From Clostridiales bacterium (GTDB taxonomy: Bacteria; Bacillota; Clostridia; Christensenellales; Borkfalkiaceae), in assembly GCA_015055725.1 (NCBI GenBank), contig SVHO01000001.1, positions 1-64,000 on the forward strand: a DNA stretch of 64,000 nucleotides, written 5' to 3'. A model generated the notes under the pieces. That model was not told the origin of the DNA. It did no database searches and saw nothing but the letters and a program-made list of their open reading frames with translations. The translations under genes and the position numbers were made by a program. Each line of letters starts with the position of its first letter. Position 1 is the first letter of the stretch. Below, piece after piece: positions 1,791 to 62,677 of this stretch.

Positions 1791-3128
1791 ATGATTAACG
1801 ACACTATATCGGCAATTTCAACCGCGCTTTCAGCAAGTGGTGTTGCCGTGATAAGAATAAGCGGACCTTCTGCTTTAAATATTGCTCAAAAAATGTTTAT
1901 CCCCGTTGGAAAAACGGGGGTTTCTGACTTTGAACCGAACAAAATGTACGTAGGCGAAATTGAAGCCGATGGTTTTAAAGATTACGGAATGTGCGTATAT
2001 TTTAAAGCACCCAAAAGTTTTACGGGTGAAGATTCGGTTGAATTCCATTGTCACGGTGGAATAGCCATAACTAAAGGCGTGCTCAAAAAAACCCTTTCGC
2101 TTGGTGCAAGGCTTGCAACTAACGGCGAATTCACAAAGCGCGCGTTCTTAAACGGCAAACTTTCTTTATCATCCGCCGAGGGGCTTATCGATATGATAAA
2201 TAGCGAATCGGAAAGTGGTGTTAAGGCGGGTTATTATCTTTATAGAGAAAAACTTACTGCCGAAATTAACGCGATGCAAGACGATATTACCGACGTTCTT
2301 GCTCAAATTGATGCTGATATGGATTTTCCCGAAGAAGATTTAGAGCAAACGTCAACGCTTGCAGTTGAAAACACGTTGAATTCAGTCGTTCAAAAAATAG
2401 ACGCGCTTTTAAAAACTTATCGTACGGGTAGAACGCTTAAAAACGGCGTTCGCGTTGCAATCGTTGGGAAGCCAAACACGGGCAAAAGTTCGCTCCTTAA
2501 CGCACTTTTAAATTATGATAAAGCAATCGTTTCAGACGTTGCTGGAACAACTCGCGATATAGTTGAAGGAAACCTTGATATAAACGGCGTTCGCTTTAAT
2601 TTTTCAGACACCGCAGGCATTAGAGAAAGCGGTGATAAGGTTGAAGAAATGGGCGTTTCGCTCTCTAAAAAAGTTTTAAGCGAAAGCGACGTGATTTTGT
2701 TTGTTTTAGACGGCGGGTTTATAACTCAAGAAGACGAACAAATTTATTCACTTGTAAAAGATAAAAATTTAATCGTTGCAATCAACAAAACTGATAAAAA
2801 CGATTATAAAGACGACAGGGCAGACGTTTACGTTTCTGCGCTTAAAAAGCACAATCTTTCCCAATTAAAAGAGTTGCTTTTTGAAAAAAGCGTAGGCAGT
2901 GGTTTAGACCTTAACGGCGATTTTTTGTGTGAAGAGCGTCACTTTAACGCCCTTTTACGCGCCAAGGAAAAATTGCTTTCCGCCCTTAATTCCATCGGAC
3001 TTGTCACTCTTGACCTTTTAGCCATAGACGTAAAAGACGGTTGGGATGCTCTCGGTGAGATTTCAGGGCGTACCGCAACTGAAGATATAATAAATGATAT
3101 CTTTTCTAAGTTTTGCGTAGGAAAATAA
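1791..3128 (+). CDS. mnmE: tRNA modification GTPase MnmE (TrmE)
   Basis: 445 residues, normal length. With MnmG it installs the cmnm5 group at wobble U34 of certain tRNAs, using folate and GTP. The N-terminal folate-binding domain starts TISAISTALSASGVAVIRISGP. A Ras-like G domain is inserted in a helical domain, with P-loop GKPNTGKSS from residue 226 and switch II DTAGIR. The protein ends with the family CxGK signature (C442-V-G-K), whose Cys is essential in characterised MnmE. No mnmG follows, unlike in many Bacillota. No strong SD is seen before the ATG, so it is probably translationally linked to the upstream gene. Its TAA lies inside the 5' arm of the next hairpin element. Confidence 0.97.
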   Translation: MINDTISAISTALSASGVAVIRISGPSALNIAQKMFIPVGKTGVSDFEPNKMYVGEIEADGFKDYGMCVYFKAPKSFTGEDSVEFHCHGGIAITKGVLKKTLSLGARLATNGEFTKRAFLNGKLSLSSAEGLIDMINSESESGVKAGYYLYREKLTAEINAMQDDITDVLAQIDADMDFPEEDLEQTSTLAVENTLNSVVQKIDALLKTYRTGRTLKNGVRVAIVGKPNTGKSSLLNALLNYDKAIVSDVAGTTRDIVEGNLDINGVRFNFSDTAGIRESGDKVEEMGVSLSKKVLSESDVILFVLDGGFITQEDEQIYSLVKDKNLIVAINKTDKNDYKDDRADVYVSALKKHNLSQLKELLFEKSVGSGLDLNGDFLCEERHFNALLRAKEKLLSALNSIGLVTLDLLAIDVKDGWDALGEISGRTATEDIINDIFSKFCVGK

Positions 3129-3250
3129 AGTCTTATAAACTTCGTTGCAGGTCGTTTCTGCTTTGCGTTTTGACTTCGATAACCAGAGACGGTTAATCTC
3201 ACCCAAAACGCGTCGCGAGCCTACTGCAACTCGTTTCTAATCCTTTATTT
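3123..3250 (+). repeat. Hairpin repeat element, copy D
   Basis: 128-bp element overlapping the mnmE stop codon. P1 is AAATAAAG (3123-3130) with CTTTATTT, continued by TTATAAAC with GTTTCTAA. P2 is GTTGCAG with CTGCAAC, a different but fully complementary pair compared with copy A (GTTAGGC with GCCTAAC). P3 is GCGTTTTG with CAAAACGC. P4 is GATAACC with GGTTAATC. The middle is nearly identical to the tandem units at 541-784. Confidence 0.8.
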
Positions 3251-7159: not shown

Positions 7160-7338
7160 ATAGCACGAATACCACGAAAGCAGTCAACCATACTGGCTTT
7201 AGCACCGTAGGGCAATGAAACTGCATTAAATCACGCCTTGTTTTCGACGGGGTTTGTTAACCAACTAACAGTGTCTCCACTGAGTCGCGGCAGCAGTCCG
7301 TATCCCTATGGTAGCCTTACCTACCGGATTTATTCATT
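7160..7338 (-). ncRNA. M-box (ykoK leader) Mg2+ riboswitch
   Basis: On the - strand the leader holds the conserved M-box blocks in order: a GGTAGGTAAGGCTACC region, then ATAGGGATAC, then CTGCTGCC, and near the 3' end TTTAATGCAG and CGGTGCTAAAGCC. These are the signature strings of the M-box aptamer class, and the downstream gene is mgtE, its classic target. High Mg2+ folds the aptamer and favours the terminator. Boundaries are approximate. Confidence 0.93.
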
Positions 7339-13409: not shown

Positions 13410-14294
13410 ATGAAGAGTGGATTTGTTGCCGTTGTTGGCAGGGCAAACGCGGGCAAAAGTACGCTTATTAACGTTATGGTTGGTGAAAAGGTTGCAATAG
13501 TTTCGCCAAAGCCACAAACCACGCGCGATAGAATTTTGGGAGTTTTAACGACGAGCGATTATCAAATTGCCTTTATTGATACGCCTGGTATTTATAAGGC
13601 GGATAATTTGCTTAACTCGGTTATGCAAAAAACCACGGCGGATAGTTGCGCCGACGTTGATTGTATTCTCTTCGTTTTAGACGCGCACGAGGGTATAAGC
13701 GAAACGGACGTTAATCTCTTAAATAAATACGTTAAGCAAAACGTTCCTGTTGTAGTTGCCCTAACAAAGATAGATATAATGCCTGAAAGTTTACTTATTT
13801 CAGAACTTAAAACACTTTCGGAACTTCAAGTTGAAATAGTTCCCGTATCGGCAAGAAAGGGCAAAAACATCAAAGAACTTATAAAAGTTTTGCTAGAAAA
13901 ATTGCCCCAAGGCGATAAAATTTTCGAACAAGATATCGTGTCCGATAGGTCGGAAAAGTTTATGCTTGCCGAGATTATGCGTGAAAAAATACTTCTTAAA
14001 TTCGATAAAGAAATTCCGCACGGCGTCGCAATTATAATAAATAAATTTGCGCTTATGGACGGCGGAAATATGTATGAAGTTAATCTCGACGTTGTTTGTG
14101 AAAAACCCAACCACAAAGCCATTTTAATCGGCAAAGGCGGAAAGGCTATTCGTGAAGTTTCCACTTTCGCCCGTCAAGATATGGAAAAGTTTTTAGGTAA
14201 AAAAGTTTTTTTAACCACATACGTAAAAATTAAAGAAGACTGGCGGAATAGTGCTCAATTAATGAAAGAATACGGCTACGAAAACGGCTTATAA
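13410..14294 (+). CDS. era: GTPase Era
   Basis: 294 residues, normal length. Era binds the 3' end of 16S rRNA and helps 30S assembly. Motifs: GRANAGKST (residues 10-18), DTPG near 57-60, TKID near 120-123, SARKGKNI, and a C-terminal KH domain with IREVSTFARQDME-like core and KVFLTTYVKIKEDWR. It starts 1 base after ybeY. Its last codons (ENGL stop) form the 5' arm of the next hairpin repeat, so gene end and element overlap. Confidence 0.97.
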   Translation: MKSGFVAVVGRANAGKSTLINVMVGEKVAIVSPKPQTTRDRILGVLTTSDYQIAFIDTPGIYKADNLLNSVMQKTTADSCADVDCILFVLDAHEGISETDVNLLNKYVKQNVPVVVALTKIDIMPESLLISELKTLSELQVEIVPVSARKGKNIKELIKVLLEKLPQGDKIFEQDIVSDRSEKFMLAEIMREKILLKFDKEIPHGVAIIINKFALMDGGNMYEVNLDVVCEKPNHKAILIGKGGKAIREVSTFARQDMEKFLGKKVFLTTYVKIKEDWRNSAQLMKEYGYENGL

Positions 14295-14401
14295 ACTGCG
14301 CAATCCTGCGTTTCTGCTTTGCGTTTTGACTTCGATAACCAGGCGGTTAATCTCACCCAAAACGCGTCGCGAGCCTTGGCTTGCTCGTTTCTAAACGGTT
14401 T
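14282..14401 (+). repeat. Hairpin repeat element, copy E (overlaps the end of era)
   Basis: About 120 bp. The outer arms are AAACGGCTTATAAAC and GTTTCTAAACGGTTT, mostly complementary. P2 is GCAATCC with GGCTTGC, with one T/C mismatch. P3 is GCGTTTTG with CAAAACGC. P4 is ATAACC with GGTTAAT around a loop two bases shorter than in copy D. The 5' arm is coding sequence of era plus its stop codon. Confidence 0.75.
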
Positions 14402-60566: not shown

Positions 60567-60578
60567 CCTGTTAAACGA

Positions 60579-60607
60579 TTGACAAAATTCAAAGTATATT
60601 GTAAAAT
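60579..60607 (+). promoter_or_regulatory. Sigma-A promoter of the unidentified leader
   Basis: TTGACA (60579-60584), a 17-base spacer, TAAAAT (60602-60607). Predicted start near 60614. Confidence 0.85.
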
Positions 60608-60613
60608 AAAATT

Positions 60614-60740
60614 GTAAATACCTAAACTAAAAGGTTCGCCTGATGGCAAAGGGATTGTTTTTTCGGATTAAGCAAGGCAAAAGCCTTGATAAATCACGTT
60701 CCGCCCTTACCTTATAGTTTGGTAAGGGCGTTTATTTTTT
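60614..60740 (+). ncRNA. Structured leader or small RNA of unknown class ending in a terminator
   Basis: About 127 nt from promoter to terminator. It contains GCCTGATGGC-type small pairing near 60638, a perfect CAAGGC/GCCTTG hairpin (60673-60688, AAAA loop) and the terminator stem below. A possible 24-codon frame (ATG 60643 to TAG 60715) ends inside the terminator loop. An ABC binding-protein/permease operon follows, so this may be a riboswitch or attenuator. It matches none of the riboswitch consensus strings I know (TPP, FMN, SAM, M-box, preQ1, fluoride). Confidence 0.6.
60702..60740 (+). terminator. Terminator of the 60.6-kb leader
   Basis: CGCCCTTACC (60702-60711) with GGTAAGGGCG (60721-60730), then a T-run. 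Confidence 0.93.
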
Positions 60741-60863
60741 TAAGGCTTATAAACTACGCAATACTGCGTTTCTGCTTAGCCTTTTGGCCTAAATAACCAA
60801 AAAGGTTAATTTAGTCAAAAAACCTTCGCGAGCCTTGTCTTGCTTGTTTCTAATCCTTAAAAA
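60737..60863 (+). repeat. Hairpin repeat element, copy G
   Basis: 127 bp. Outer stem TTTTTAAGG (60737-60745) with CCTTAAAAA, again starting in the T-run of a terminator. P2 is GCAATAC with GTCTTGC (one mismatch at the same place as copy E). The inner hairpin is much altered but still paired: CTAAATAACC with GGTTAATTTAG. It lies between the leader terminator and the ABC operon. Confidence 0.78.
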
Positions 60864-60911
60864 TTCGTCCAATAAAAAAATAGGTAACGTGTTTACCGCA
60901 TAGGAGTTAAT

Positions 60912-61913
60912 ATGAAAAAATTTATAACTTTTGTTTTATGTTTACTTTTATCGTTTTCGTGCTTTTCTTTTTCCGCGTGTAGTGACGACGGGAATAAAGG
61001 TTTAACCTTTTACGCGCCAGACGGCGCGCCTGCTCTTGCAATAGCAAAATTGATTAACGATAATGAAGATTTTGGTATTGGCAAAGAAATAGACTATAAA
61101 GTGGTTGCGTCAAGTGATATCGGAACGACAATGGCTACGGGAAAAGGGGACTTTATCGTTATGCCAGTCAATTTGGCATCAAAACTTTATAAGGCAAACG
61201 CTAAGTCGCCTTACGTTATGACCGCGGTTATTACGCACGGCAATTTATATTTAATGAGTAGCGACGGAACGAACTCTCTTGAAGGGTTGAAAGGTAAAGT
61301 AGTTGGCGTGATAGGGCAAGGGTTAGTTCCCGATTTAACGCTTAAAGCAATTTTTGCTGATAATAATCTTATATCGGACGTGGTTGTCGGCGACACTCCA
61401 ACTGCAAATAAAATCACATTGCGTTATTTTGAGAAAGCACCCGAAATGATACCTATACTTAAGCAAGGGGGAATAAGCGTTGGTTTACTGCCCGAACCCG
61501 CTGCCACTAATTTAATAAGGGTTGCTGATAATAGAACGTGGACGAGAGTGGACGTTCAGCAACTTTACGATAACGTTAATTGCGCTTATCCGCAAGCAGT
61601 TTTAATGGTTAAAAAGAGCGTGTACGACAAGTATAAAAATAATATCGACCAAATGCAAAACGTTTTTGAACAAAACGTTGCTTGGGTAAAAAATAATACA
61701 GAAAGCGCGGTTAATGCGGTAAATTCAAAACTTAAAGAAGGCTTAACGCCAAGTTTGGTTGCGAACGTTATAACCCCAACCGTAGTTGATAATTGCAAAA
61801 TTTATTATCAAAGTTCTCTTCAAGCTAAAGCAAGCGTTAAAAGTTATATAGATAAAATAATTGCGGTGATGGCACAATCTGCCGTAGCTGTAAACGACGA
61901 TTTTTTCGCATAG
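60912..61913 (+). CDS. ABC transporter substrate-binding lipoprotein (SsuA/NMT1-like)
   Basis: 333 residues. Lipoprotein signal: MKKFITFVLCLLLSFSCFSF, with lipobox SFSAC ending at Cys 22. The mature part has the two-lobe periplasmic-binding fold of the nitrate/sulfonate/thiamine-precursor class (FYAPDGAPALAIAKL; GKGDFIVMPVNLASKLY; LKGKVVGVIGQG; VGLLPEPAATNLI). Substrate unknown. AGGAG precedes the ATG. The permease follows after 5 bases, but no ATPase gene is seen. Confidence 0.88.
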   Translation: MKKFITFVLCLLLSFSCFSFSACSDDGNKGLTFYAPDGAPALAIAKLINDNEDFGIGKEIDYKVVASSDIGTTMATGKGDFIVMPVNLASKLYKANAKSPYVMTAVITHGNLYLMSSDGTNSLEGLKGKVVGVIGQGLVPDLTLKAIFADNNLISDVVVGDTPTANKITLRYFEKAPEMIPILKQGGISVGLLPEPAATNLIRVADNRTWTRVDVQQLYDNVNCAYPQAVLMVKKSVYDKYKNNIDQMQNVFEQNVAWVKNNTESAVNAVNSKLKEGLTPSLVANVITPTVVDNCKIYYQSSLQAKASVKSYIDKIIAVMAQSAVAVNDDFFA

Positions 61914-61918
61914 AATAA

Positions 61919-62677
61919 ATGAAAAATAAAATAGGTAAGGTTTTAAACTTAATATTGCCCGTGATTGTTATAGTTTCAATTTTTATCGTTTGGGCAAGCG
62001 CGTCAAATAATATTGACAATCAATATATTCTTCCGTCTGTAAAAGCAACGGCAGAAGAATTTTTCGCGCTGTTTAAAAGTGGGGAATTTTGCCTTTCTTT
62101 TCTTAAAACTTTAGGGCGCGCGTTGACTGCTTTTGTGTTATCTTTCGTTATTTCTTTCGCACTTTCAATTTTATCGGCAAAGATAAAACACGTGCATTCT
62201 GCAATTTTGCCCGTTATAAGTGTTATGCGTGCATTACCAACTATTGCCGTAGTTTTGTTGTTGCTTCTTTGGACTAATTCGTTCGTTGCGCCCGTTATCG
62301 TCACTCTACTCGTTGTTTTGCCAACGTGTTATACAAACCTTGAAAACGCATTTTGGTCGCTTGATAAAACGATTGCCGAAGCAGGAAGAGTTGACGGCGC
62401 AAACGAAATGCAAGTTTTTTTGAAGGTTGAATTGCCTATGATAGCAAATAATCTTTTAAGCACGATTGGTAGTGGGATATCGCTTAGTTTTAAGTTGATG
62501 GTTGCAGCGGAAGTGTTATCACAAACTGCAACTTCAATCGGCTATATGCTAAACACTTCAAAAGTATACTTTGAAACGGCAAAGATGATGGCTTTGGTTT
62601 TGTCTGCGGTTATCTTTGGCGTATTGATAGAGTGGCTTTTTAACAAGTTAGCAAAAAAGGCTAGCAGTTGGAAATAA
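61919..62677 (+). CDS. ABC transporter permease (SsuC-like)
   Basis: 252 residues. Six helices and the EAA loop AEAGRVDGANEMQVFLKVELP that contacts the ATPase. In the BPD_transp_1 family. No SD of strength is visible, so coupling with the binding-protein gene is likely. The terminator right after it ends the operon, so the ATPase must be encoded elsewhere or shared. Confidence 0.9.
   Translation: MKNKIGKVLNLILPVIVIVSIFIVWASASNNIDNQYILPSVKATAEEFFALFKSGEFCLSFLKTLGRALTAFVLSFVISFALSILSAKIKHVHSAILPVISVMRALPTIAVVLLLLLWTNSFVAPVIVTLLVVLPTCYTNLENAFWSLDKTIAEAGRVDGANEMQVFLKVELPMIANNLLSTIGSGISLSFKLMVAAEVLSQTATSIGYMLNTSKVYFETAKMMALVLSAVIFGVLIEWLFNKLAKKASSWK

Follow-up and report, generated by a model that had tools for sequence, protein, structure and literature searches.

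What controls the ABC importer operon that begins at position 60912 of the window (the whole 64,000-nucleotide stretch of DNA analysed here), and which need of the cell does the importer serve? The initial annotation had described a near-consensus promoter, a perfect 6-bp hairpin and a strong terminator ahead of the ABC genes, and had proposed an undescribed riboswitch or a translation-coupled attenuator. All of those elements were recovered, and the locus was assigned the following features:

60579..60607, + strand, sigma-70-type promoter, TTGACA-17-TAAAAT (11 of 12 positions in a consensus scan)
60620..60654, + strand, candidate sensor core hairpin of ~34 nt (kept across order and class; covariation; model R2)
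60649..60653, + strand, AAGGG in the 3' strand of the core, putative antiterminator partner of CCCUU at 60704-60708 (complementarity, duplex tests)
60673..60688, + strand, linker hairpin CAAGGC-AAAA-GCCUUG, 6 bp (helix 3, covarying in the leader alignment)
60702..60741, + strand, intrinsic terminator with stem 60702-60711/60721-60730 and U tract 60731-60741 (helix 4, covarying)
60912..61913, + strand, NMT1/SsuA-like substrate-binding lipoprotein (SsuA-family match below the cut-off; NMT1 in 23 of 55 homologues; fold matches)
61919..62677, + strand, ABC permease, BPD_transp_1 (nearest named family SaoP, below the cut-off)

The position of the promoter places the probable transcription start near 60613, and homologous leaders, too, have promoter-like sequences ahead of them. 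The stem of the terminator, GCCCUUACC/GGUAAGGGC at 60703-60729, can be extended by the pair C60702-G60730 and is followed by the U tract. The leader folds more stably than its shuffled versions (z = -3.5), and a blastn comparison of 60570-60742 with 100 relatives showed that in many of them the orthologous gene is preceded by the leader, at identities of no more than 83% and with a conservation peak at ~60600-60655. The initial annotation had named conservation confined to the terminator, or a match to a known class, as grounds for abandoning its proposal; both were looked for, and conservation reaches far beyond the terminator. An alignment of 28 leaders, analysed with RNAalifold and by pair counting, yielded the core hairpin, the linker hairpin and the terminator, and the resulting leader model (R1) had matches in 38 of the 396 genomes of the order. 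Across genus and order the leader is always upstream of the same NMT1/SsuA-type binding-protein operon. Additional weak R1 matches in the window's own genome and in genome G141 were rejected, being terminators only.

Two other elements of the window are recorded here. A dispersed repeat of this genome fills 60737-60865, between the terminator and the binding-protein gene; further copies are found at 579-671, 701-793, 3128-3245 and 14286-14394 and on other contigs, in places in tandem with a spacing of ~122-125 bases, and a similar sequence follows the leader in genome G035. An M-box (magnesium) riboswitch is located at 7177-7335 on the - strand (93.6 bits).

The core is composed of three short helices, P1 (60621-60623/60650-60652), P2 (60627-60629/60644-60646) and P3 (60632-60634/60639-60641), separated by the internal loops AAA/CAA and AA/GA and capped by a UUCG loop. 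Its consensus consists of two facing copies of CURA-stem-AAAG (CURA-P2-AAAG...CURA-P2'-AAAG), which makes it pseudo-two-fold symmetric. Among 72 distinct cores 98.3% of cells were paired and 94 cells were double-changed, with a covariation score of 0.373 versus 0.112 for shuffled alignments. For 19 distant cores, in which P1 covaried as well, the score was 0.550 versus 0.142, although that alignment was fitted to the model and so leans towards structure. For the core taken by itself, the thermodynamic fold was dropped because it is not the conserved one; covariation favours the nested hairpin 60621-60652. The leader is therefore a real, conserved and covarying RNA structure, and it has the aptamer-like form in a 5' leader that is looked for in a riboswitch.

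The suggestion in the initial annotation that AAGGG could pair with the CCCUU of the terminator arm was borne out, and the pairing is widely conserved. Over eight columns, 79.6% of cells were paired between the 3' strand of the core and the 5' arm of the terminator, with a peak at the natural register; in 45 of 89 leaders the core 3' strand was the stretch that paired best, and the share of other stretches pairing equally well had a median of 0. Natural partners also surpassed permuted ones (none of 2000 permutations reached the natural pairing), but this excess vanished when the comparison was made among nearest leaders only, and for that reason we describe the antiterminator as conserved complementarity and not as independent covariation. 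As such, the leader possesses the overlapping expression platform expected of a riboswitch, in that the terminator covaries and the competing complementarity is kept, with co-evolution beyond relatedness not demonstrated for the latter. In operons in which TM1266 is the first gene, the 3' arm of the terminator resembles a Shine-Dalgarno sequence shortly before the ATG. Between terminator and TM1266 in loci L067, L070, L073 and similar ones, the order is the 3' arm AAGGGAGG, the U tract and then the ATG, an arrangement through which this hairpin could both end transcription and mask the Shine-Dalgarno sequence. The core itself is, in some genomes, at the ribosome-binding site of HydG, with its AAAGG at the Shine-Dalgarno position, which likely represents a translational version of the switch.

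A protein-blind pattern in which P2 was left free was scanned over contigs of ~85,000 species, giving 107 stretches, of which 80 were listed. Among the matches listed, 69 of 80 lay immediately ahead of, and on one strand with, a TM1266-like gene, the gene for this binding protein or both, and both free P2 pairs were standard in 53 of the 70 distinct cores. The ~11 listed matches without a linked gene were set aside: eight were unlinked, mostly in unrelated taxa, and judged to be chance, and the rest were too near a contig end to be assigned. The core is carried by, among others, Candidatus Gallimonas, Candidatus Coproplasma and Pumilibacter muris, a cultured isolate that also has the importer. 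The usual order in relatives is RNA, terminator, TM1266 (assigned by TIGR03959 at 106.9 bits, cut-off 60.8), binding protein, permease and ATPase. In the window's genome the TM1266 gene is kept, but elsewhere, and the permease has no ATPase beside it, several candidate ATPases being encoded elsewhere.

The ABC genes themselves are where the initial annotation had placed them. The NCBIfam cut-offs for a SaoP/SaoA/SaoB transporter were not reached (SaoP 86.7 versus 295, SaoB 21.4 versus 140 and SaoA 126 versus 360 bits). The AlphaFold model of the binding protein is confident (pLDDT 94.3) and nearest to 3hn0 and then to TauA, a thiamin binder, PqqT and SsuA; this predicted fold fits an NMT1/SsuA-type importer and is too generic to name a substrate, and it was accordingly dropped as a guide to the ligand.

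Of the binding protein's 102 orthologues that are distinct and complete, 18 are circularly permuted, with the C-terminal part preceding the N-terminal part. Two or more cut points occur, each form with a signal sequence of its own in front: near residue 160 (L042:1962-2978, L035, L044, L047, L055, L058, L061 and L104), near 205-214 (L081, L101, L121, L131, L163, L166, L169 and L074) and near 192 (L123 and L164). One permuted form has a confident predicted fold (pLDDT 87).

The core is not restricted to importer operons. When the core model (R2) was run over 391 genomes of the class, 13 matches were obtained outside the family, of which 11 were at TM1266, HydE, HydG, AspA or HydA-TM1266 loci (~4 chance hits expected). 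These sites are upstream of aspartate ammonia-lyase (with HydF next), of TM1266-HydG, of TM1266-HydE and of HydE, and between HydE and HydG; at a further type of site, a TM1266 and binding-protein gene pair lies directly after HydA. The other two matches, at threonine synthase (L232) and inside an ORF (L235), were judged to be chance. Aspartate ammonia-lyase has itself been tied to H-cluster assembly (PMC11736057). TM1266 is encoded in all 17 class-level genomes with the motif versus 240 of 391 overall, and an unfiltered search of 30 TM1266 loci located more cores just upstream of TM1266, several scoring significantly. The RNA is thus linked to the H-cluster genes as a regulon, in counts that ignore kinship, and shows the consistent placement before genes of one pathway or transport need that is characteristic of riboswitches.

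In many other Clostridia a second conserved element follows the core, CCUGACGCC...GGCGGAAGG or UUCUGAAUGCACGAGGGUUAGUCCCAAGUGGUAAGG, bracketed by CUGA and AAGG and upstream of TM1266 (L246, L248, L269, L260, L243 and L259, L271, L245, L253, L265). It had no Rfam match in the loci scanned and, judged by its sequence, is possibly part of a tandem or larger sensor.

Within a set of 74 genomes of the order and class, a [FeFe]-hydrogenase domain (HydA) was encoded in every one (example locus G000:C14:30351-31175), including all 46 with both motif and importer, and the HydA of the window's genome has all three H-cluster motifs, TSCCPAW, MPCSAKKDE and EVMSCPGGCVNGGG. HydF was over the cut-off in 10 of the 74 genomes and in none of the 46. 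HydG was absent from all 23 importer genomes of one search, and was found in none of the 38 motif genomes of the order versus 51 of the 358 others. It is missing from most genomes of the order (345 of 396) although nearly all of those tested have [FeFe]-hydrogenase, and among those tested HydF is mostly missing too. The HydG profile also detects HydE where HydE is present, and because it found none in nearly all of these genomes, HydE is probably absent as well. Among 50 genomes searched for both proteins, most of the genomes compared here being MAGs, one had HydG and the binding protein, seven HydG alone, 34 the binding protein alone and eight neither, so that the two are nearly mutually exclusive (Fisher p = 0.0004, relatedness of the genomes ignored).

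We consider that the best explanation, to which we give somewhat better than even chances as a whole, is that of a transcription attenuator, with an undescribed hairpin of ~34 nt as its sensor, that belongs to a regulon of the [FeFe]-hydrogenase H-cluster. In the folded state, which the effector would stabilise, the hairpin would hold AAAGGG in P1, the terminator would form and expression would be off; when unfolded, AAAGGG would be free to pair with the CCCUU arm as an antiterminator and expression would be on, the behaviour that feedback on uptake and synthesis calls for. The effector would most likely be a small molecule of H-cluster biosynthesis, making the element a riboswitch, and we prefer this to the TM1266 protein. 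In Clostridia containing HydEFG the element fronts the maturation genes, and in the window's lineage, with a hydrogenase and neither HydG nor HydF, it precedes an ABC importer probably serving that very need. The conserved structure, the operon specificity, the association with H-cluster genes and the lack of maturases are shown by the comparisons above, whereas the direction of switching, the identity of the effector and the transported compound are inferred.

Several other explanations were weighed against this one. To our knowledge no RNA-binding activity has been described for the TM1266 family, a putative regulator of hydrogenase that is ACT/NikR-C-like and lacks a DNA-binding domain. A protein-dependent attenuator, in which TM1266 binds the pseudo-symmetric hairpin and, on sensing an H-cluster signal, stabilises or melts it, would nevertheless account for most operons having TM1266 as their leading gene behind the motif, for its presence in every class-level motif genome, as a cognate protein should be (the window's genome keeping its copy at a distance), and for the repetition of CURA...AAAG on both strands, as expected for a dimeric binder. 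Since TM1266 occurs much more widely than the motif can be detected, we regard this, the main rival, as a possibility to be taken seriously but a doubtful one. Tyrosine, cysteine and SAM feed H-cluster assembly. Ammonium does so too, according to PMC11736057, and these inputs would fit an importer of an ordinary nutrient that shares the RNA through a general signal such as iron, redox state, ammonium, tyrosine or cysteine. That the importer anticorrelates with HydG, and that only hydrogenase-linked operons and importer operons have the RNA, makes such a general signal unlikely in our estimation.

The likeness of the NMT1-fold binding protein to thiamin, sulfonate and PQQ binders could instead mean that the leader has diverged from a known riboswitch class (TPP, HMP-PP, xanthine NMT1 or preQ1) and senses an ordinary nutrient. 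This appears very improbable, given that no Rfam class matched the window or 40 homologous loci and that the context is one of H-cluster maturation; the thiamine precursors, sulfonates and purines put forward as ligands in the initial annotation are likewise not preferred, since in other Clostridia this RNA is placed ahead of [FeFe]-hydrogenase maturation genes. The 24-codon ATG frame from which translation coupling had been proposed does exist, starting at 60643 and running into the terminator loop. However, the ATG is present in only 1 of 30 homologous leaders, which leaves a translation-coupled attenuator unsupported; ORFs of at least 15 codons occur in 3 of the 30 and the conservation is structural, and we accord this explanation hardly any weight.

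Returning to the H-cluster attenuator, the importer may, in lineages that lost HydEFG, supply an H-cluster precursor, a substrate made attractive by the opposed occurrence of binding protein and HydG. Apo-hydrogenase is activated in E. coli lacking HydEFG when synthetic [2Fe]adt is supplied externally (PMC6984386), and precursor salvage is therefore chemically feasible. We tentatively put forward, as a conjecture that we hold to be less likely than not, that many gut Clostridia with [FeFe]-hydrogenase but without HydEFG import the [2Fe] moiety or an advanced organometallic precursor from their surroundings, and that an RNA responding to H-cluster supply, either a riboswitch or dependent on TM1266, governs the importer here and the maturases in self-sufficient relatives. 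The link with hydrogenase genes makes an anonymous importer a candidate for H-cluster precursor uptake and offers a testable answer to how hydrogenase bacteria without HydEFG could make active enzyme; such sharing of a cofactor, if true, would have consequences for hydrogen production by gut bacteria.

With regard to known systems, the core had no match in Rfam 15 in the whole window, the leader or the 40 homologous loci, even at permissive thresholds, in agreement with the view of the initial annotation that no known riboswitch class was involved. The best leader score in the window was PyrG_leader at 25.8 bits (gathering threshold 65), and near-matches at the terminator were terminator-like only. 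A search of openly accessible journal literature found no RNA tied to hyd genes, and neither there nor in Rfam was an RNA class controlling [FeFe]-hydrogenase maturation found. The leader, conserved, covarying and outside Rfam, thus continues to be a candidate for a new class of riboswitch or attenuator upstream of an ABC operon. Among characterized leaders, LicT/SacY RAT, PyrR and HutP depend on proteins for antitermination, and share with it a hairpin that is imperfect, keeps its internal loops and forms in mutual exclusion with a terminator; our leader differs from them in having no Rfam match and another sequence and gene context, and TM1266 is its candidate binder. Like the xanthine riboswitch (NMT1 motif, PMC7373994), which is named for the same broad NMT1-type transporter family, it is a small structured leader RNA, but one without an Rfam match and with a context of its own in the H-cluster maturation genes. 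Aspartate ammonia-lyase beside hydF is also a feature of the hyd operon with aspA, whose description mentions neither RNA control nor an importer in its accessible part (PMC11736057); here the gene is under the same RNA. The HMP-PP (thiS) riboswitch similarly joins a compact candidate aptamer to an intrinsic terminator in Firmicutes (PMC6478431), but whereas that aptamer sits inside the terminator hairpin, here a separate 5' hairpin would compete with the 5' arm of the terminator.
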